This document shows positions 42,533 to 51,210 of a stretch of 64,000 nucleotides of DNA, piece after piece. A program made the position numbers and the translations under genes. Location: the NCBI RefSeq assembly GCF_009392895.1, contig NZ_CP045488.1, positions 2,170,001 to 2,234,000 of the forward strand, written 5' to 3'. Source of the DNA: Natronorubrum aibiense. GTDB taxonomy: Archaea > Halobacteriota > Halobacteria > Halobacteriales > Natrialbaceae. Every line of letters begins with the position of its first letter. Position 1 is the stretch's first letter. Below the pieces are notes generated by a model. It was given only the letters and a program-made list of their open reading frames with translations, made no database searches and was not told the DNA's origin.

Positions 42533-43450
42533 TCAGTCCTTGTCGGGCATCGTCGAGTGGCGAACCGGCCCTCTCATATCAGCGCGCTCCGACGGCGGTG
42601 GCGCCATCGTCGAGTAGCGCGTTCCGCTGCCACCGGATGTGCCGCGGTTCCGATCCGATCCGAGGTCGACGTCGAGCAATCCGTCGTCTTCAGTATCGCT
42701 CTCGGTCTCAGTCGTGTCATTCTCGATGACACTTTCGTCTTCGTCGCTGGCGGTGCTGGCACGCGCTTCCTCGAGTCGGTCCTGGAGGTGCTCGAGGTCG
42801 TCGCTGATCCCGTCGAACGAGGACTCCATCGCCGACCGGAGCTGGTCGCCGAGATCGCCGGGCGTCTCTGCCCCGTCAGCATCGGATTCGTCGCCGGCCG
42901 GTGCTTCGTCCTCGTCACTCCCGAGAACACCGTCGAGGCCAGTGGCCTCGCTGACTGTCTCAGCGGCCGACTCGATCGTCTCTCGAGCGCCATCGTCGTC
43001 GCTTTCGGACTCGTCCGTGTCCTCGTCAGGTGTGTCCGATCCAGTGTCAGTCTCCGGTTCGGAGTCGTCGTCCTCCGCCCCGTCGTCGATCGACTCCCGT
43101 AACTCGCCGACGGCTCCCTCGAGCGTCTCGTCATCGCCCCGGTCGGCGAGTTTCGAGAGGGCTATCAGTCGCTGTAACGCCTCGACGTGCGCCGGCTCAC
43201 CCTGGGAGATCGCCTCGGGAATCGAATCCGGTTCGGTCCCGTCCGGGAGCGTGTCCAGACCGACTGCCTCGAGCAGGTCGTCCGGGTCGGCCGACTCGAG
43301 CAGGTCGTTCGCCTTCGCTGCGGTCTCGAGCAAGTCCGTCTGTGCCGTCTCGGCGTCCCCGTCCGAGTCGGTCGTCGCGACGAGCGAGCCGCTGGACGTA
43401 TCGGCCTCGCGCAGTACCTCGTTTACTCGTTCGCGGAGTTTTTGACTCAT
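42533..43450 (-). CDS. Unrecognised acidic protein with C-terminal basic RxSTM motifs (glycine-zipper operon, gene 4)
   Basis: A 305-residue soluble-looking protein of unknown function. Residues 1-125 are helical and less charged (MSQKLRERVNEVLREAD; VEALQRLIALSKLADRGDDE). Residues 125-260 are mostly acidic and disordered but include a 23-residue helix-like module at 154-176 (GARETIESAAETVSEATGLD). That module recurs in the upstream neighbour. A coiled-coil-like segment follows (SDDLEHLQDRLEEARAS). The tail turns basic and repeats R-Y/H-S-T-M twice (TRYSTMAPPP, VRHSTMPDKD). It is the last gene of a four-gene minus-strand unit, 51 bases after its neighbour. Confidence 0.75.
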   Translation of the reverse strand: MSQKLRERVNEVLREADTSSGSLVATTDSDGDAETAQTDLLETAAKANDLLESADPDDLLEAVGLDTLPDGTEPDSIPEAISQGEPAHVEALQRLIALSKLADRGDDETLEGAVGELRESIDDGAEDDDSEPETDTGSDTPDEDTDESESDDDGARETIESAAETVSEATGLDGVLGSDEDEAPAGDESDADGAETPGDLGDQLRSAMESSFDGISDDLEHLQDRLEEARASTASDEDESVIENDTTETESDTEDDGLLDVDLGSDRNRGTSGGSGTRYSTMAPPPSERADMRGPVRHSTMPDKD

Positions 43451-43501
43451 CTGTCGTGTCTCGACTCTAAAGCCGCACCTCGAGGCGGCGGTCTCGATCG
43501 A

Positions 43502-44392
43502 TTACTCGGCTTCCGCGTCCGCCTCGTCCGCCGATTCGGCTTCTGACTCGTCGTCTGTCACTGCCGCGACGATCTCGTCGGTCATCTCTTCGCGACTGAG
43601 GTTTGCCTTCACGTCGACGTCCTTTGCGATGGACTGCAGATCGTCGTAGGACATCACCCCGAGGAAGTCCGTGAGGGTCTCTTTTCGGAGCCCTTCGATA
43701 TCCTTGACTGACGTATCGGAATCGTCTTCGCCATCCGATTCGGAATCGGTCGCCTCGTCGCTTTCGTCCGCCGTCTCCGCCTCGGCGTCCGATTCGTCGT
43801 CGCTTTCCGTTTCGGCTTCGCTGTTCTCCATCGTCTCGTCATCTCCAGATTCGTCCGCATCGTCGTCTGTCAAGACCTCGTCGAGCCCACTGGCCTCGCT
43901 CACGTCTGTGGCGACTGACTCGACCGCCTCTCGAGCACCGGTATCCTCGCTTTCTTCGTCGGCGTCGTCGCTCTCTGCGTCGGCATTATCCGCCTTGGCC
44001 GCCGATTCGTCTCCGCTGGTATCGCTCTCGAGAAGTCCCTCGAGGCCATTTCCCTCGGTTGCACGCTGGGCCAGCGACTGAACCGATTCCGCCGCGTCGT
44101 TGTCCGCAACCGTCTCGCGGATGGCGTCACGGACCGCCGTCGTGAGATCCGACTGCAGTTCGTTCCGGTCTTTGTCCGCTTCGATCCCCTCCGCCATCGT
44201 CTCGTGGACCGCACGGCCGATCGACGACCCCAGTTTCCGTCCCATCTGAGCGCCGAACTCGCGACCGACTGCGGCACCGAGCTCGCCGCCGTCGATGCCG
44301 TCTTCGATGGAGCCGTCTCCGAGGAGATCGGTCACCTCGACCTGATTGCTCACCTCCCGGGCGACCAGCTGTTTCAGTCCGGCGTCACTCAT
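43502..44392 (-). CDS. Unrecognised acidic glycine-zipper protein with C-terminal SAP/Rho-N-like domain (gene 3)
   Basis: A 296-residue protein. Start at 44392 (MSDAGLKQLVAREVSNQVEV) is preferred because GGTGAG lies about 4 bases upstream; an ATG at 44425 is the alternative. Residues 35-62 form a glycine zipper with G every third or fourth position (GELGAAVGREFGAQMGRKLG), expected to pack tightly or insert in a membrane. After a long acidic region come the module GAREAVESVATDVSEASGLD (from about residue 152) shared with the downstream gene, and a C-terminal helix-extended-helix of SAP/Rho-N type (RKETLTDFLGVMSYDDLQSI). No known family is recognised. Confidence 0.75.
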   Translation of the reverse strand: MSDAGLKQLVAREVSNQVEVTDLLGDGSIEDGIDGGELGAAVGREFGAQMGRKLGSSIGRAVHETMAEGIEADKDRNELQSDLTTAVRDAIRETVADNDAAESVQSLAQRATEGNGLEGLLESDTSGDESAAKADNADAESDDADEESEDTGAREAVESVATDVSEASGLDEVLTDDDADESGDDETMENSEAETESDDESDAEAETADESDEATDSESDGEDDSDTSVKDIEGLRKETLTDFLGVMSYDDLQSIAKDVDVKANLSREEMTDEIVAAVTDDESEAESADEADAEAE

Positions 44393-44449
44393 CGAACTCA
44401 CCTTGAGGCGAGCCATCCGCGTCATCGAGCAGTTGAGACGATAGCATGG

Positions 44450-44926
44450 TTATTCTTCCTCGTCCGTCGCTTCGTTTTCGTCCGCGGCCTCAGCATCCTC
44501 GGCTTCGGATTCGGCGTCGTCGACGTCTTCGCTCGTGTCGCTTTCTCCCTCACGTTCTGTGTCGTCGCCGGTGGCTTCGGCGTCTTCCGCGTCCGGATCT
44601 GCATCCGATTCGTCTTCCTCCGTTGATTCGTCCTCGTCATCCGCCGCAGATTCGCCTTCGTCTTCCTCCACGGTGTCGTCTGCAGGCTCTTCGTCGGGAC
44701 CGAGCAGTTCCTCGACGACCAGCTCACCGATCGTCCGGCCGAGGGATTCGCCGACCTTTCGGCCGACGAGTGCGCCGATCTGGCCGCCGAGCGCTTCGCC
44801 GAGGGGCTTTTCGTCGTCGATCTCGTCTTCCCACTGGGTTCCCTCGACGAGTTCGTCGACGTCGACGTTCTCGGCGATCTTCCCATAGTCGATCCGCTGA
44901 GTCACTGATTTCGATTGCTCACTCAT
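44450..44926 (-). CDS. Unrecognised acidic glycine-zipper protein (gene 2)
   Basis: A 158-residue protein. Residues 1-40 are polar, 43-67 form a glycine zipper (GEALGGQIGALVGRKVGESL, then GRTIGELVVEELLG), and residues 77-158 are almost entirely Asp, Glu, Ser, Ala and Thr. The zipper aligns well with that in the downstream neighbour, so the two are paralogues in this part. The ATG lies 2 bases after the upstream stop. It could associate with a membrane or with the downstream paralogue; function unknown. Confidence 0.75.
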   Translation of the reverse strand: MSEQSKSVTQRIDYGKIAENVDVDELVEGTQWEDEIDDEKPLGEALGGQIGALVGRKVGESLGRTIGELVVEELLGPDEEPADDTVEEDEGESAADDEDESTEEDESDADPDAEDAEATGDDTEREGESDTSEDVDDAESEAEDAEAADENEATDEEE

Positions 44927-44928
44927 GA

Positions 44929-45963
44929 TTACGCCTCCGCCTGTGACGCTGTGTCGGACTGAGCGTCCGATTGAGTCTCTTCGCGCTCCGGCTCGAGTTG
45001 CTCGATCAATTGCTCGATCACCTGACTGACGATCGTCGCCACGAGGTCTTCGATCGGGAAGCCGGGGATGAGCCCGAGTAGCTTCTCTTTCAACCAGCTA
45101 CCAGCGGCGGCGATCCGACTCTCGGACTCGTCGCTCGTGTCTTCGTCCGCCTCGGGCGTTTCGGCGTCCGCGTCCTCGTCAGGGGTCTCTTCCGTGTCGG
45201 CCTCCTCATCAGGGGTCTCCGCCGTGTCGGCTTCCGCTTCATCACCGCCGAGGTTGAAGAGGCTGCTGAGCAGTTCCCGTGGCTTGTTCGCCAGTCGACC
45301 GAGGAACGCTTTCGGTTTCTCGAGCAGGCTGCTGAGCAGCTCCTTCGGCTTACCAAGGAGTGACGACACCGCGTCCGACAGCCCGCCAGCACCATCGAGA
45401 AGTCCCGTCACCGCGGACAACAGGTTCCCGAGCAGGTTGTTCTCACCCGGCCGGGCCGAGATGTCGAGCGTTACCGGGTTCAGGTTTACTTCGAGGCCGA
45501 GTAGATCGAGGAACAGACCATCGAGATCGAGATGGAGGACGCCGGATGCATCGTCGTCCTGATAGACGTCCTCGGCGTCTTCGACGTGGTATTCGTCTTC
45601 TGACTCCGTCGCCTCATCGTCGGCGTCCGCTTCCGTCTCAGTGTCTTTCAGTTCCGCCGCGTCTTCCTCGTCGCCTTCGACAGCCGCTTCAGTTTCGGCT
45701 TCGTCCTCGGCCTCGTCTGTTTCGTCCTCGCTGGCGGCTTCGTCTTCGTCCTCGGAGTCCGACTCCGGCGGCTGCTCCTCGAGGGTCTCGCCGGACTCGG
45801 TCGCTTCGTCGGCTTCATCGGCTTCGGCTGAAGATCCCGACTCGGATTCGTCGTCGGCAGCCGACTGCGACTCCGCTTCGTCTTCGGACATTGATTCGGA
45901 GTCATCTGACGCTTTGCTCTCGTCGCCTTCCTCCGTCATCTCGGCCTGACCGCCGTCCGTCAT
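44929..45963 (-). CDS. Unrecognised protein with LLGL-NLLGNLL domain and three 11-residue amphipathic repeats (gene 1)
   Basis: A 344-residue protein starting at 45963. Residues 1-140 are acidic and disordered. Residues 143-191 form a hydrophobic domain (LDLLGLEVNLNPVTLDISA then RPGENNLLGNLLSAVTGLLD) that recalls a motif in bacterial proteins of unknown function. Residues 205-237 are three tandem 11-mers: KPKELLSSLLE, KPKAFLGRLAN, KPRELLSSLFN. Acidic ETPDE-type repeats follow (248-270), then a C-terminal amphipathic region (GSWLKEKLLGLIPGFPIEDL). An in-frame ATG at 46080 overlaps a TATA-like box and is less likely. First gene of the operon. Confidence 0.75.
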   Translation of the reverse strand: MTDGGQAEMTEEGDESKASDDSESMSEDEAESQSAADDESESGSSAEADEADEATESGETLEEQPPESDSEDEDEAASEDETDEAEDEAETEAAVEGDEEDAAELKDTETEADADDEATESEDEYHVEDAEDVYQDDDASGVLHLDLDGLFLDLLGLEVNLNPVTLDISARPGENNLLGNLLSAVTGLLDGAGGLSDAVSSLLGKPKELLSSLLEKPKAFLGRLANKPRELLSSLFNLGGDEAEADTAETPDEEADTEETPDEDADAETPEADEDTSDESESRIAAAGSWLKEKLLGLIPGFPIEDLVATIVSQVIEQLIEQLEPEREETQSDAQSDTASQAEA

Positions 45964-46078
45964 CACCCTGCAGTCAGTCGATCTTACTTGCCCGTCGACG
46001 TGGCGGTTCCTCGAGCGGACCCAGACCGCCACTGGATCCGAACACTCCTCAGATCCGTCATTTTCTAGTCCCGGTGTC

Positions 46079-46086
46079 ATTATACC
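46079..46086 (-). promoter_or_regulatory. TATA-like box for the glycine-zipper operon
   Basis: Minus-strand GGTATAAT occupies the region just upstream of an in-frame ATG at 46080, overlapping it. A transcription start some 25 bases downstream, near 46055, would leave a leader of about 90 bases to the ATG at 45963, in front of which AGGGTG could act as a ribosome-binding site. The 262-base gap 45964-46225 holds nothing else I can support. Confidence 0.4.
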
Positions 46087-46225
46087 GAAAACACACGGGC
46101 GTAGGCGTTGTGGGAATTGGCCTTGCGTGTGCGACCGCGCAGTCGGGATCGACAAGCGACGAGTACGCTGGACTCGAGACGTGGCCGAGCCGCGGATCGA
46201 ACCGCGAACGAGCTCGGAAAAGACG

Positions 46226-47506
46226 TTACTCGAGCGACCCGACGCGCAGTGCGTACTCGCCGCGCTGGTCGCCCTCGTCGTGGTATTCGACGGGCTCTTC
46301 GATCGCGGCGATGGTCTCGCCGTCGACGGCAGCGGCGGTCGCGATTCCCGCGAGCGAGTCGACGCCGGTCGGACCGGACTCGAGGTCGAACCGGCGAACG
46401 GCGTGGGTTTCGGGGTCGCGAACGCGGAAGTTCTGGGCACACGGCGCGACGAGCGTGTCGCCGTCGGTGGCGAGCCCGTGGACGAACCCGCGCACCTGTT
46501 CGTTCCACAAGAGGTCACCGTCGGCATCGAACGTCGCGATCCGATGCTCGTTCGGATGACGACCCTCGGTCTCGCGGCGCTCGAGGGCGTAGGTGTTCCC
46601 GGTGACGAACGCTGTGCGGCCGTCGTTCGCGTAGACGTGGTTCGGGTAGGCGTACAGCGTCTCACCGTCGATCTCAGTTTCGACCGCCAGATCGACGTGC
46701 CAGCGTTCGGCCCCGGCGGGGCCGAGCAGGTAGCCGCACTTGTCGCCGTGACTCGAGACCGCGATCGTCTCGCCGTCGAACGAGATATCGCCGACGCGTC
46801 GGTCGCCCTCGGTGCCGGGGTCCCAGGTCCACTCGAGGTCGCCCGTGTCCGTCTCGAGGACGACGAGGCCGTTGTCGTGGTCGCCCATGCAGCGATTGTA
46901 GCCGACGGACAAACGGTCGCCGTCAGCGTCGAGATCCAGCGCGATCGGTGAGGCGTCGGTCTCGTAGCTCCAGCGAACCGAGCCGTCGGGATCGAACGCG
47001 TAGACGGCGCTGTGCCACTGGCGGCGCTCGCCGTCGCGTTCGTAGCGTCGCACGGCGGCGTACAGCAACTCGCCGTCGGTCTCGAGCGCGACGACGTAGG
47101 GAAGGTAGAAGATCGTGTCTGTGGTCGCCTCGCCGACGTCCGCGGCCGTCTCATATCGCCAGCGTTGCTCGCCTGTCTCGGCGTCGTAGACCGCGATCGC
47201 CCCCGATTCGCCGCGGCCGGCGACGACGACTGCACCAGCGCTGCCGGCTGGTTCGTCGCTCTCGAGCGTTGCGATTCCGACCGCGTGATCCGGATGCGCG
47301 GCCGTCCAGCGGGGCTCGAGGGAGTCGACATCACGGGCAGTCACGGTCCCGTCCCACTCTCCGGTCACGACGAGGTCGCCATTCGTTGCGACCGCAGAGC
47401 GGGTCCACATGTGTCGGCTGCGGGCCGGGTCGATGTCGCCGAGCGGGAGTCGTCGAAGCGATAGCTCGCGCTCGGAGTCGGGGTCGAGGTCTGCAGTGCC
47501 TGCCAT
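46226..47506 (-). CDS. PQQ/WD-like beta-propeller protein of the cobalamin cluster
   Basis: A 426-residue protein built from repeated four-stranded blades, for example DLVVTGEWDGTVTARDVDSL, GAIAVYDAETGEQRWRYET, GLVVLETDTGDLEWTW and HRIATFDADGDLLW. No signal peptide is seen, so it is probably cytoplasmic. The ATG at 47506 has GGAG at suitable spacing upstream; a GTG at 47512 would also be in frame but too close to that site. It follows a DUF3209 gene and CbiX, and its likely role is as scaffold or binding protein in cobalt/corrin chemistry (inference from position only). Confidence 0.8.
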   Translation of the reverse strand: MAGTADLDPDSERELSLRRLPLGDIDPARSRHMWTRSAVATNGDLVVTGEWDGTVTARDVDSLEPRWTAAHPDHAVGIATLESDEPAGSAGAVVVAGRGESGAIAVYDAETGEQRWRYETAADVGEATTDTIFYLPYVVALETDGELLYAAVRRYERDGERRQWHSAVYAFDPDGSVRWSYETDASPIALDLDADGDRLSVGYNRCMGDHDNGLVVLETDTGDLEWTWDPGTEGDRRVGDISFDGETIAVSSHGDKCGYLLGPAGAERWHVDLAVETEIDGETLYAYPNHVYANDGRTAFVTGNTYALERRETEGRHPNEHRIATFDADGDLLWNEQVRGFVHGLATDGDTLVAPCAQNFRVRDPETHAVRRFDLESGPTGVDSLAGIATAAAVDGETIAAIEEPVEYHDEGDQRGEYALRVGSLE

Positions 47507-47508
47507 GC

Positions 47509-47880
47509 TCACTCCTCGACCGGGAACGTCTCGTGGAGGGTATCGTGGGCCTCACCGAGTCCGTCGACGATGCTCTCGCTCTGGACGGCCAGTCGCTGGA
47601 TCGCCCGCTCCGCATTGCGGACCTCGAGCAGCCGCCCTCGAGTGTACCCGTATTCGGGACCGTCGCTGTCCATCTCGCCGACTTCCGCTTCGAGATCGAC
47701 CAGTGCGGCGTCGAGGTGGCGCTGGAGTTCGGAGAGGGTATCGGCCTCGACGAGCCCTTCGATGGGCCCCTCGAGGTGGCCTTCGAGTTCTTTCTCCGCG
47801 TGCTCGCGGGCGTGTCGGTCCCCGACGCCGAGGACGTTCATCAGTCCGAGTCGTAGTGCTTCGATTTCGTGGCAGCTCAT
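47509..47880 (-). CDS. DUF3209 family protein next to CbiX
   Basis: A 123-residue helical, acidic protein beginning MSCHEIEALRLGLMNVLGVG. Its only Cys, at residue 3 next to a His (CHEIE), could bind metal. From memory it matches DUF3209, recurrently found beside cobaltochelatase genes in haloarchaea and some bacteria; unverified. The size, His/Glu content and position suggest a cobalt-handling helper. It is 56 bases downstream of cbiX and directly before the propeller gene. Confidence 0.8.
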   Translation of the reverse strand: MSCHEIEALRLGLMNVLGVGDRHAREHAEKELEGHLEGPIEGLVEADTLSELQRHLDAALVDLEAEVGEMDSDGPEYGYTRGRLLEVRNAERAIQRLAVQSESIVDGLGEAHDTLHETFPVEE

Positions 47881-47936
47881 GGTTGTGTTCTGTAATGATG
47901 GCTGTATTAGGTTTCGTCTGTGTGCCTATTCGTCCC

Positions 47937-49163
47937 TTAGAGGGTCTGATCGACGAGATCGCTCACGATGCGATCCCGGTCGAGGTGATCTGCGACGAGT
48001 CGTTCGGCGTCGTCGGCCGCGACGTCGCCGTACCAGACGCCGTCGGGGTAGACGGCGACCATCGGCCCGTCGCCGCAGCGGCCCAGACACGACGACCGCG
48101 TGATGCGGGCGTCGCAGTGGTCGGAGTCGCGCGCTTCCTGCCGAAGGCGCTCGAGGACCGCCGGCGAGCCCATCTTCGCGCAGGTCTGGTTGGTACAGAC
48201 CGCGACGTGCTTTGCGGGCGCGTCGTGGCTGTGGGGTTCGTCGTCGATATCCTCCCGGTCGGCGTGGGCCTCCTGATGGGCGAGCGCACGCAACATCGCT
48301 CGTGCGCCGCCGACGTCTTCCTCGTAGCCCTCGAGATCGATCTTGTACTTGCACGTGTCACAGGACATCTCGACGCTGCCCGACCTGGCCTCCTGCCAGC
48401 GGTCGGCGAAGACGTCCAGCAGCCGCGAGTCCGTGCCGAGCGGGTCGCCAGCCAGTGCGTCGACGTAGGGGTAGTCCGCGTCGAACTCCGCGGTCCAGTC
48501 GCGCACGCGCTGGGTGAGGACGCCGTCGCCGAGCATGTACGGGAGGACGACGACCGCGTCGGGGCGGTGTTTCGAGAGGCCGTGGAGGGTGTCCTCGAGC
48601 GTCGGTTCCGTGACGCCGATGAACGTCGCCTCGACGCGGTCGAAGTCCCGGCCCTCGAACAGCAGGCGAGCGAGTTTGTGAACGTCACCGTTGGCGTCCG
48701 GATCGCTCGAGCCGCGACCACAGACGACGACGGCAACGTCGTCCTCCGTGCGGTCGACGCCCAGCTCCGATTCGACCGCACCGGCGCGGTCGTCGAGCAG
48801 GTCCAGAATCGCCGGATGGATGCCCAGATGCGCGCCGTTTCTGATTTCGACGTCGTGGGTCGCTCGGGCCTGCTCGATCGCCAGCGGGACGTCGTTTTTG
48901 ACGTGGCTCGCGGCGAACAGCGAGCAGTGGACGACGGTTACCCGCGACGTGACGGCTGCGAGTCCTGCGATAGCGTCGTCGATCGCCGGCTCCGCAAGCT
49001 CGAGAAACGCTGCATCGACCGGAATTCCCAGTCGTGACTCGAGGTCGGCAGCCAGTTCGCGGACCTGTTCGTTCGACTTTTCCCGGCGGGAGCCGTGGCC
49101 CACCAGTAGGATGGCTTCGTCGTCGAACGCGGACGTGGATGTGGAATCGTCGGATGTGCTCAT
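47937..49163 (-). CDS. cbiX: Sirohydrochlorin cobaltochelatase CbiX fused to a ferredoxin-like domain
   Basis: Inserts cobalt into sirohydrochlorin, the early cobalt-insertion step of anaerobic cobalamin synthesis. The 408-residue protein has two CbiX domains (long form): ILLVGHGSRREKSNEQVREL with metal-binding His near residue 23 and VTVVHCSLFAASHVKNDVP near 77-95, then VVVCGRGSSDPDANGDVHKL and VVVLPYMLGDGVLTQRV. A Cys-pair segment CDTC, a His-rich linker (HQEAHADREDIDDEPHSHD) and a thioredoxin-like [2Fe-2S] ferredoxin end (CTNQTCAKMGS and SSCLGRCGDGPMVAVYPDGV) follow. Such CbiX-ferredoxin fusions are known in archaea. Confidence 0.92.
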   Translation of the reverse strand: MSTSDDSTSTSAFDDEAILLVGHGSRREKSNEQVRELAADLESRLGIPVDAAFLELAEPAIDDAIAGLAAVTSRVTVVHCSLFAASHVKNDVPLAIEQARATHDVEIRNGAHLGIHPAILDLLDDRAGAVESELGVDRTEDDVAVVVCGRGSSDPDANGDVHKLARLLFEGRDFDRVEATFIGVTEPTLEDTLHGLSKHRPDAVVVLPYMLGDGVLTQRVRDWTAEFDADYPYVDALAGDPLGTDSRLLDVFADRWQEARSGSVEMSCDTCKYKIDLEGYEEDVGGARAMLRALAHQEAHADREDIDDEPHSHDAPAKHVAVCTNQTCAKMGSPAVLERLRQEARDSDHCDARITRSSCLGRCGDGPMVAVYPDGVWYGDVAADDAERLVADHLDRDRIVSDLVDQTL

Positions 49164-49211
49164 TGTCGGTGTCGTCGGGTAGTCAGCGGAGTCGATACGG
49201 TGTTGAACTGG

Positions 49212-49955
49212 CTACTCGCCGTAGCTGTCTGCCTGTGCGATGCTTCGCTCGAGTTTCCGGCGGCGGCTCGGTGCGAATAGGCCAGTTGCCTCGCAGCCTT
49301 CGTAGAGCCACGTTCCAAACTCGGGGACAGCAGCGTCGTCGACGCCGAACCAGTAGCCCCCCGAGGACGTCGCCGAAAGCTCGCTGACGGCTGTGTCGAT
49401 CGGGCAGTCGGCAAGTAGTTCTTGGGTCGCCTCGAGCAGCGTGCGGTCGTCGTGGACGAACGAAATGCCGACAGTGCCACTCGAGGACTTGAAACAGATC
49501 GTCCCACAGCCCTCGAGCAGACCCCGAAGGAGTTCGCGATCGTGACTCGAGAACGCGCCGAAGCGGTAGTTTCCGCGGCCGTCGACGGGCAGCGAGAGTG
49601 CGCTGGTGCGACCCAACAGCTCCTCGCTGTCCTCGTCGATCGAGAGCGTGTACTCGTCTTCGGTGCGCGTGATCGACGTGTCGTGGGCGTACTCGCGACT
49701 GGTCGTCTCGTGGTCGACGTTGCCGCCTACGATTGCGGCGAGCACCTGCGCGGCGTGCTCGTCGGTGGTGACGACCTCGAGACGCTCACAGCGTCGTCGT
49801 TCGCTGTCCGTGATGCTCGCTTCGCTTCGAACCACGCGCCCACTCCCAGCGACGTGGCCCCAGAAGTACGCCGTCGCGGGGTGGCCCGCGAGCGGATCCG
49901 ATGGGACCGCGACCTCGAGGGTGTCGCCCTCGATCACCGATTCGGCGTCGCTCAT
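49212..49955 (-). CDS. LAGLIDADG-like protein of the cobalamin cluster, catalytic acids apparently lost
   Basis: A 247-residue protein not recognised as any cobalamin enzyme. Residues 27-41 (ATAYFWGHVAGSGRV) and 142-153 (LLRGLLEGCGTI) each look like the LAGLIDADG helix of homing endonucleases. The second is followed by a strand-helix pattern (GTVGISFVHDDRTLLEATQE) usual for that fold. Ser or Cys stands where the metal-binding Asp/Glu normally ends each motif (AGSG, EGCG), so cleavage is unlikely. It overlaps the ferredoxin gene by 4 bases and is inside the operon, so it is probably a repurposed DNA- or corrin-related binding protein (inference). Confidence 0.7.
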   Translation of the reverse strand: MSDAESVIEGDTLEVAVPSDPLAGHPATAYFWGHVAGSGRVVRSEASITDSERRRCERLEVVTTDEHAAQVLAAIVGGNVDHETTSREYAHDTSITRTEDEYTLSIDEDSEELLGRTSALSLPVDGRGNYRFGAFSSHDRELLRGLLEGCGTICFKSSSGTVGISFVHDDRTLLEATQELLADCPIDTAVSELSATSSGGYWFGVDDAAVPEFGTWLYEGCEATGLFAPSRRRKLERSIAQADSYGE

Positions 49956-50218
49956 TCGCCCACCTCTCGGACGACAATGGCGTCCGTCGGGCAGGCCGCC
50001 GCGGCTTGGTGGGCTTCCTCGATGCGATCGTCGTCGAACGTTGCGACGACCCGTTCGACGGTGTCGGTGACCTCACCCTCGCAGTCGTAGACCGGATCGG
50101 CGTCCGGATCGACCGTTGCGAGGCCGTCCGCGCCTTCGATAAATCGCGGATCGCGAGTCAGGCAGGCGAAGATGCCGTCGCAAGCGTCCTTTTCGATGGT
50201 GACTTCGTAGCGTGGCAT
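49952..50218 (-). CDS. Ferredoxin of the cobalamin cluster
   Basis: An 88-residue single-cluster ferredoxin-like protein: EKDACDGIFACLTRDPRF with Cys at about residues 13 and 18, and HQAAAACPTDAIVV at the end, with another Cys in VYDCEGEVTD. The spacing differs from the classical C-x2-C-x2-C, suggesting a 3Fe-4S or modified cluster. Similar ferredoxins occur in haloarchaeal cobalamin operons, where they may feed electrons to ring-contraction or reduction steps. It starts 2 bases after the cbiH stop. Confidence 0.8.
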   Translation of the reverse strand: MPRYEVTIEKDACDGIFACLTRDPRFIEGADGLATVDPDADPVYDCEGEVTDTVERVVATFDDDRIEEAHQAAAACPTDAIVVREVGE

Positions 50219-50220
50219 GA

Positions 50221-51210
50221 TCAGTAGTCGTACTTCGTCTCGTAGCCACGCGGCGTGACCATCCGGTCATCCCAGACGTAGGTGTCCTCGGTGCCGACGA
50301 CGATCGTCGTCGTCATGTCGATGATCTCGTTCTCACCGAGCTCCTTGAGTTCGCCGAGGTCGGTGATCATCACCTGCTCGTCGTCCCGTCCAGCGCCGTG
50401 GACGATGCCGACCGGCGTGTCTTCGTCGCGGTGGGTCAGCAGGATCTCACAGCATTTCTCGAAGTTCTCGCGGCGCTTGCGACTCCAGGGGTTGTAGATC
50501 GTGATGGTGAAGTTCTCGCTCGCGACCGCGTGCAGTCGCGACTCGATCTCTGGCATCGGCACCAGATGGTCCGACAACGAGACCGAGACGGTGTCGTTCA
50601 CCAGCGGTGCGCCCAATCGAGCCGCACAGGACTGGGCCGCCGGCACGCCGGGCACGACCTCGAAGTCGACCATCGAGGCCGTCGCGCCCTTGGACTCGAG
50701 GATCTCGAGGGCCAGCCCCGCGAGCGCGTAGACGTTGGGGTCGCCGCTGCCGACGATCGCCACGTCGTTGCCCGCGAGCGTGCGGTCGATCGACTCTTCG
50801 GTCCGCGAGACCTCGCCACACATCGGCGTGTCGTAGATGTCGTCGGCCTGCTCGGTGATCTCGTCGGGAATCAGCTCGATGTAGGTCGTGTAGCCGACGA
50901 TGTGGTCGGCCTCGAGCAGGGCGTTCTTGGCTCGTTCGGTCATCCCCTCCGGATGGCCGGGGCCGAGTCCGACGGCGATCAGTTGTCCGGGTTCGGCGTC
51001 GAAGTCGTCTATCGTCGCGCCAACTTCCTGCTCGTTCGAGTCATCGTCCGAATCGGAACTCGAGGCCCCGCATTTGGATCTGCTCGAGTCGTCGGTGGTC
51101 TCGCTCGACGAGCCACCGCATTTGGAGCCACTCGAGGTTTCCGTTTCGGTCGTCGAGGCGCCACATTTGGAAGTCGATTCGTCAGCGTCTGCATCAGTAT
51201 CTGTACTCAT
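50221..51210 (-). CDS. cbiH: Cobalt-precorrin-3 C17-methyltransferase CbiH (copy 1) with Cys-repeat N-terminus
   Basis: SAM-dependent methyltransferase that methylates C17 and drives ring contraction. The 329-residue protein has the tetrapyrrole methylase fold from about residue 75: LIAVGLGPGHPEGMTERAKN, VAIVGSGDPNVYALAGLALE, and VVPGVPAAQSCAARLGAPLV. The first 65 residues are an extra acidic tail with three Ser-Lys-Cys-Gly motifs at 14-17, 29-32 and 45-48. A C-terminal end matching the second copy (TRKR-free TYVWDDRMVTPRGYETKYDY) shows the relation between them. The second cbiH gene lies 12 bases upstream. Confidence 0.92.
   Translation of the reverse strand: MSTDTDADADESTSKCGASTTETETSSGSKCGGSSSETTDDSSRSKCGASSSDSDDDSNEQEVGATIDDFDAEPGQLIAVGLGPGHPEGMTERAKNALLEADHIVGYTTYIELIPDEITEQADDIYDTPMCGEVSRTEESIDRTLAGNDVAIVGSGDPNVYALAGLALEILESKGATASMVDFEVVPGVPAAQSCAARLGAPLVNDTVSVSLSDHLVPMPEIESRLHAVASENFTITIYNPWSRKRRENFEKCCEILLTHRDEDTPVGIVHGAGRDDEQVMITDLGELKELGENEIIDMTTTIVVGTEDTYVWDDRMVTPRGYETKYDY

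Follow-up and report, generated by a model that had tools for sequence, protein, structure and literature searches.

A four-gene operon of acidic proteins in Natronorubrum aibiense as a probable gas-vesicle accessory system of haloarchaea

What do four adjacent genes for strongly acidic proteins do in a haloarchaeon when no curated family fits them? The genes, here called A, B, C and D, lie co-directionally on the minus strand, from 46080 to 42533, in a 64-kb window (the whole stretch of DNA analysed, 64,000 nucleotides of contig NZ_CP045488.1) of Natronorubrum aibiense (genome G000, 4.35 Mb). Scans of their products against Pfam, NCBIfam and PHROGs returned weak matches only, many of them driven by composition. 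An earlier note, made from the letters of the window, had proposed that the four proteins work together in membrane or inclusion-surface assembly. Gas vesicles are protein balloons that let cells float, and sequence comparisons indicate that the A-B-C-D cassette almost certainly has a gas-vesicle accessory role. This link is drawn from its occurrence in GvpA-bearing genomes only, its decay together with the gvp genes, its location in gvp clusters, the paralogy of D to the GvpI-position protein and the near-exclusion of the cassette with the coat protein GvpC. As a whole, the results are probably best explained by a hitherto undescribed accessory operon of the gas-vesicle system, which may coat or shape the vesicle in lineages lacking GvpC. 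The open-licence literature searched yielded no paper that connects glycine zippers or SAP domains with gas vesicles, although a description elsewhere is possible.

The genes of the cassette are as follows.
44929 to 46080, minus strand: gene A, an open reading frame (ORF) for an acidic protein with a hydrophobic core, 11-mer amphipathic repeats and a C-terminal helix; 383 aa from the ATG at 46080, or 344 aa from 45963.
44450 to 44926, minus strand: gene B, an ORF for a glycine-zipper protein with an acidic tail, kept in relatives.
43502 to 44425 (to 44392 with the start noted earlier), minus strand: gene C, an ORF for a protein with a glycine zipper, an acidic middle and a SAP-like C-terminus.
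42533 to 43450, minus strand: gene D, a GvpI-type paralogue by profile alignment (hhalign against GvpI-position proteins, probability 99.0, E 6.6e-18).

Occurrence, loss and location with gas-vesicle genes

The cassette was scored by a profile of the A core, and GvpA by PF00741, in 392 genomes of the haloarchaeal order. The profiles matched 139 genomes (before exclusions) and 163 genomes, respectively. Equating an A-core match with a cassette had to be corrected, as solitary Tat-exported paralogues exist; genomes with such paralogues (G170, G180 and G107; loci L115, L132 and L133), weak matches (G224 and G375) or a fragmentary match (G186) were set aside as non-cassette. Cassette and GvpA were then found together in 133 genomes, GvpA alone in 30, neither in 229 and the cassette alone in none (p about 1e-75, a value that, like those below, ignores shared ancestry). 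Counting all the set-aside genomes as cassette-bearing would add four cassette-positive genomes without GvpA, all solo or weak. Cassette surroundings were read in the loci cited here, and the other members of the 133 were scored by profile alone. Outside the window's family (Natrialbaceae) the corresponding counts were 50, 27, 219 and none (p about 3e-37), and a genus-level test there gave p about 4e-10.

The cassette is thus limited to gvp-bearing genomes and, judged by the remnants it leaves, decays as the gvp genes decay. In Natrinema (g8), GvpA was present in 16/16 cassette-positive genomes and missing from three of the four cassette-negative ones. Frameshifted relics of A and C remain in G096, which has no GvpA; in G310, which has a gvp cluster without gvpN, A and D are frameshifted and B and C are open. 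A profile of C found no match in 44 of the 49 cassette-less genomes tested, the exceptions being G096, G310, one fragmented assembly and two marginal matches.

Location points the same way. Thirty-two of the 35 loci from outside the family have the zipper within several kilobases, most of them together with modules of the SAP-like and D types; the other three are solo paralogues. Gene order, strand and domain fusions vary among these loci, so the strict order seen in the window's family is not a mere relic of genome stability. Clustering of the neighbouring genes placed Gvp proteins beside many of them, and the cassette lies inside gvp clusters in 17/32 non-family loci and 2/40 family loci, that of the window genome not being among these. 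In the annotated Halocatena salina sequence NZ_CP096022, gvpO-gvpA is accompanied by the array gvpF-gvpG-gvpH-[A]-[B]-[D]-gvp-gvpK-gvpL-gvpJ, in which A, B and D are labelled 'hypothetical protein'. Three GvpA-type genes are present in the window genome, along with a cluster of gvpA-gvpN-gvpO plus gvpF to gvpL. Among the gvp-linked loci within L107-L141, the cassette-holding gvp clusters lack gvpN as well as gvpC, and several f14 genomes carry GvpN away from the cassette-holding cluster.

The GvpI-type protein D and the near-exclusion of GvpC

D connects the cassette to a described gas-vesicle protein through its sequence and a C-terminal feature.
42536 to 42622, minus strand: C-terminal double motif of D, TRYSTMAPPPSERADMRGPVRHSTMPDKD, in common with GvpI.

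Two ST[MVIL]x motifs occur within the last 45 aa in 39/40 D orthologues, and GvpI of Halobacterium salinarum carries HSTMP...HSTVP. The profile-profile alignment of D to the GvpI-position proteins extends over most of D. In family clusters, the gvpI position is occupied by a protein of 303 aa (L150:6861-7769) that shares its domain with D and whose C-terminal end can be aligned to GvpI of H. salinarum (NPAAHSTMPP...HSTVPKTPKYS...RLYGQR). The profile-profile alignment identifies D as a paralogue of this GvpI-position protein. The window D ends at its second motif and lacks the terminal R[IL]YGxR box, of which YG and R are invariant in the GvpI alignment; it is therefore called a GvpI-type paralogue and not GvpI itself. 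It also lies about 1.1 Mb from the gvpH-gvpJ interval, where the other D-like protein occupies the gvpI position. GvpI is a haloarchaea-specific accessory protein that forms a heterodimer with GvpH; it is non-essential in H. salinarum, where its deletion leads to longer vesicles (PMC9501494).

GvpC was searched with PF05465 (Halo_GVPC) and a broader profile, since PF05465 alone missed a divergent GvpC in G006. GvpC was present in 12 of the 30 GvpA-bearing genomes without the cassette, compared with 1/133 cassette-positive genomes (p about 2e-9). The sole genome with both, G036, has two gvp clusters, one with gvpC. Single PF05465 matches in G149 and G163, just under E 0.001, lay away from gvp genes and were unconfirmed by the broader profile. 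In family clusters with gvpN located, this gene directly follows gvpA, which leaves no room there for gvpC. The adjacency agrees with a 2015 review, according to which species of Natrialba, Natrinema, Halopiger, Natronobacterium and Haladaptatus have gvp clusters without gvpC and form no vesicles, for reasons that were not understood (PMC4390858); a table in a 2022 review gives gvpACNO for some of these genera, with which the genomes here disagree. GvpN was present in 12/12 of the GvpC-bearing genomes without the cassette, and many cassette genomes lack it. G000 gave no PF05465 or GvpC-profile match. In the absence of a PF05465 match, A is not filed as a GvpC, only as possibly GvpC-like in its working. 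The two clusters of G036, a Natrinema-type genome, stand at C1:2333594-2335813 and C1:2910493-2911719.

Layout of the operon and features of A, B and C

The earlier note was right in describing four adjacent co-directional genes, with spacings of 2, 57 and 51 bases when the starts that it used are taken (A 45963, C 44392). As relatives keep a conserved N-terminus (MTxGLEDDGSEECSDPV...) in frame before 45963, the true start of A is probably the ATG at 46080, giving 383 aa. The view of the note that the four genes work together also held. B found a match in 89/101 family genomes, the second match being C, usually close by, and the order A-B-C-D is kept on a single strand in nearly all of the 40 family loci (up to 19 kb each), where A and B as a rule either share 4 bases or are separated by 2. 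A orthologues adjoin B, C and D in nearly all loci inspected, and the four genes co-occur in other genomes. The order is unchanged even though other genes often stand in the flanks in place of the cobalamin and uspA-acs genes. Long Asp/Glu tails had been claimed for all four proteins; Asp plus Glu does make up 30-41% of each, although in D the acidic stretch is mid-protein and the STMP motif stands at the end.

The features of A, B and C, and the region preceding A, are listed below.
46081 to 46200, minus strand: region upstream of gene A, with the element CGCACACGCAAGG...CCACAACG kept in most family members (by alignment); probable promoter region.
45391 to 45546, minus strand: core domain of A, SGVLHLDLDGLFLDLLGLEVNLNPVTLDISARPGENNLLGNLLSAVTGLLDG, homologous to a secreted bacterial Cys-pair domain; four strands, then a helix, in a low-confidence model.
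45253 to 45351, minus strand: three 11-residue amphipathic repeats of A, KPKELLSSLLE KPKAFLGRLAN KPRELLSSLFN, recognised by lag-11 periodicity and a moment peak.
44989 to 45099, minus strand: C-terminal helical segment of A, SWLKEKLLGLIPGFPIEDLVATIVSQVIEQLIEQLEP, conserved in the family alignment and helical in the model.
44699 to 44803, minus strand: glycine zipper of B, LGEALGGQIGALVGRKVGESLGRTIGELVVEELLG, reached in 0/20,000 shuffles; conserved.
44201 to 44290, minus strand: glycine zipper of C, within one long predicted helix.
43541 to 43708, minus strand: SAP/Rho_N-like domain of C, from weak profile matches and a structural match of the model.

The 11-mer repeats reported earlier for A are real: lag-11 identity was 18 standard deviations above shuffles (34 orthologues), and the hydrophobic moment was maximal at 98.2 degrees per residue, where 11 residues make three turns. 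The net charge of the repeats is slightly above zero, at +0.05 per residue, against an average of -0.24 for the whole protein. The model of A was poor (mean predicted local distance difference test score, pLDDT, 61) and gave no match in a Foldseek search, an absence that says little; a sequence search of the Protein Data Bank (PDB) with the A core and C gave nothing meaningful. Over about 50 residues, the A core has 60-70% identity with a domain found in proteins secreted by Actinobacteria, Chloroflexi, Acidobacteria and Bacteroidota, a domain whose consensus, CDILxLxLGPLxLxLLGLxV...GNLLGNLLCAVAGLLD, includes an invariant cysteine pair. No name for this domain family was present in the libraries searched. 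It is widespread (bacterial loci L197-L247), and no known function was found for it. Haloarchaea also hold solitary Tat-exported versions of the core that are not accompanied by B, C or D. In A the cysteines are mostly replaced by serine or another residue (the pair is retained in L114), and no signal peptide was evident in the A sequences read. A thus fits a cytoplasmic derivative of the secreted domain, although we infer the direction of this change. The claim that the proteins fit no family therefore stood as regards curated families, but not for D, a paralogue of the GvpI-position protein, nor for the core of A. Some A proteins (L113:5505-8036, L110:6337-7689) appear by eye to bear extra Ig-like domains of the carboxypeptidase-regulatory type, as does one relative of B (L113:8677-9468).

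The glycine zippers that had been noted in two proteins were upheld in B and C, each with seven glycines at a spacing of four, a number that 0/20,000 composition shuffles reached. B scored 13.3 bits against the Pfam glycine zipper PF13488, below the cut-off of 25. The SAP/Rho-N-like end ascribed to one of the proteins is a possible feature of C, with weak support from sequence and a match in structure: the C-terminus of the model matched the SAP domain of 2rno (Z 5.6, root-mean-square deviation 2.8 A over 62 residues), and C members gave weak matches to Rho_N in 6/36 and SAP_new25 in 5/36. This domain is near-invariant among C orthologues. A lone glycine-zipper acidic protein also neighbours gvp clusters lacking both GvpC and A (L284:6635-7042, L285:10246-10656).

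Each of the two upstream regions compared has its own conserved element, ACGCAAGG before ABCD and TGCAAGCA in the gvp intergenic region. In the family, the gvpF-gvpA interval (L150:9233-9584 and 20 related regions) contains the element around TGCAAGCA (GCGACTGCAAGCACCAC), a likely regulator site of which the literature consulted gave no description. Directly upstream of the operon, at 46226 to 51210 of the window, is a cobalamin cluster with a PQQ-repeat protein and DUF3209, CbiX, CbiG-like, ferredoxin and CobJ-type genes. This cluster was found beside ABCD in only about half of the family loci inspected, and the idea that the cassette travels with it was rejected because the flanks differ between loci.

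Proposed role, rival explanations and known systems

We hypothesized that, in lineages without gvpC, the hydrophobic core and the 11-residue amphipathic helices of A would bind it to the outside of the GvpA shell, its acidic tails pointing into the cytoplasm. By means of glycine-zipper helices, B and C would oligomerise to form a scaffold that sits on A or surrounds it, and the SAP-like end of C may tether that scaffold to nucleic acid or to a partner protein. D could dock to GvpH/GvpL-type partners through its STMP motifs and tune vesicle length and growth, as GvpI does. This division of labour is the weakest step and unlikely to hold as drawn. That the cassette takes the place of GvpC as coat or stabiliser has slightly less than an even chance. 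A little more doubtful is the broader proposal that haloarchaea possess two alternative outer-shell systems, a GvpC coat and an unrelated A-D cassette that replaced GvpC, built on a domain related to a secreted bacterial protein, together with glycine-zipper and SAP-like partners. The cassette is commoner than GvpC, at 133 compared with 13 of the 163 GvpA-bearing genomes in the sample. Inclusion-surface assembly, as foreseen in the earlier note, was the right direction in that gas vesicles are protein inclusions; a membrane role was not supported over a gas-vesicle role, and the gas-vesicle link itself had been missed, leaving that interpretation incomplete.

Several observations weigh against the proposed role. 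In the window's family about 1.1 Mb separate the operon from the gvp cluster, and the upstream region of the operon shares only short matches with the gvp intergenic regions, with no clear common motif. A has no sequence relation to GvpC. About 16-18 GvpA genomes lack both GvpC and A, which shows that each can be dispensed with, and the rule that every GvpA genome has GvpC or the cassette was rejected; two of these genomes keep a lone B-type zipper protein beside their gvp genes. GvpA is absent from most haloarchaea sampled and phylogenetic non-independence inflates the p-values, although the genus-level test, the co-losses and the linkage in separate families agree with the association. Finally, gvpC-less species of the genera reviewed have been called gas-vesicle negative (PMC4390858), so that no vesicles are documented where the cassette occurs.

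The most serious rival, which we consider unlikely but well worth weighing, keeps the gas-vesicle operon and dispenses with the coat: the SAP-like C would bind DNA or RNA, and the zipper scaffold, covered by A, would position, cluster or partition vesicles or nucleation sites, or regulate gvp expression. The model and weak profile matches of the C-terminus and its near-invariance would suit such a role, as would the occurrence of the cassette with or without GvpN, unlike GvpC, which always accompanied GvpN in the genomes tested. Contacts between proteins can also be made by SAP-like folds, however, and the near-exclusion with GvpC points to coat or shape. Much further from the evidence is a separate cytoplasmic or membrane structure of the same buoyant aquatic species, whose co-occurrence with gvp genes would be merely ecological. 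Its unlinked position in most of the window's family and amphipathic helices of A that could bind membranes are compatible with this, but ecology alone predicts none of the location in gvp clusters of many lineages, the paralogy of D, the joint decay or the near-exclusion with GvpC; we hold this explanation very improbable. Marginally less credible still is an envelope or secreted location for A, as in the bacterial and Tat-exported proteins related to its core, with the operon linking vesicles to the cell envelope. The identity of the core to secreted bacterial domains speaks for it. Yet the A sequences read show no evident signal peptide and have mostly lost the Cys pair, as expected of a cytoplasmic protein, and the secreted paralogues in haloarchaea occur singly, not in company with B, C or D. 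An accessory operon that coats or shapes the vesicle remains our preferred explanation.

Gas-vesicle biology is built on a handful of models with a 14-gene gvp set. Relatives carry the cassette in Natrialba, Natrinema, Halopiger and Haladaptatus, four of the genera reviewed as gvpC-less, whose gvp systems may therefore look incomplete only through four unrecognised genes. Should the cassette be an alternative to GvpC, it would explain how vesicles may be stabilised in most gvp-bearing haloarchaea and would supply new shell proteins for engineered gas vesicles in imaging and antigen display. Haloferax volcanii, free of gvp genes and the usual host in which gvp systems are reconstructed, would allow a direct test of the question.

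Among described systems, the haloarchaeal gvp cluster (gvpACNO and gvpDEFGHIJKLM, H. salinarum p-vac) is related through the presence of ABCD inside such clusters in many haloarchaea and through D. It differs in that its 14 described genes include no counterpart of A, B or C, that ABCD is unlinked to it in most of the window's family, and that the cassette-holding clusters lack gvpC. GvpI shares the double STMP C-terminal motif and profile similarity with D, but D is acidic, longer than H. salinarum GvpI (144 aa), without the R[IL]YGxR box and gvp-distant in most of the window's family, where the gvp clusters retain their own GvpI-position protein besides D. The glycine zipper families PF13488 and PF05433 have their zipper spacing in common with B and C, with the B match under the curated cut-off, and the SAP/Rho_N domains PF07498 and PF18953 may resemble the SAP-like helices at the end of C, to judge by weak matches; the acidic tails and genomic setting of B and C differ from both. 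The secreted bacterial Cys-pair domain has a core homologous to that of A but is secreted, cysteine-bearing and solitary, whereas A appears to be cytoplasmic, is acidic and comes with B, C and D. GvpC (PF05465), like A, is a large acidic protein with amphipathic helical repeats; it would hold the same position on the vesicle and has a near-complementary distribution. Its repeat is about 32 residues long, compared with 11 in A, where no PF05465 repeat occurs, and the hydrophobic core is found in A only.

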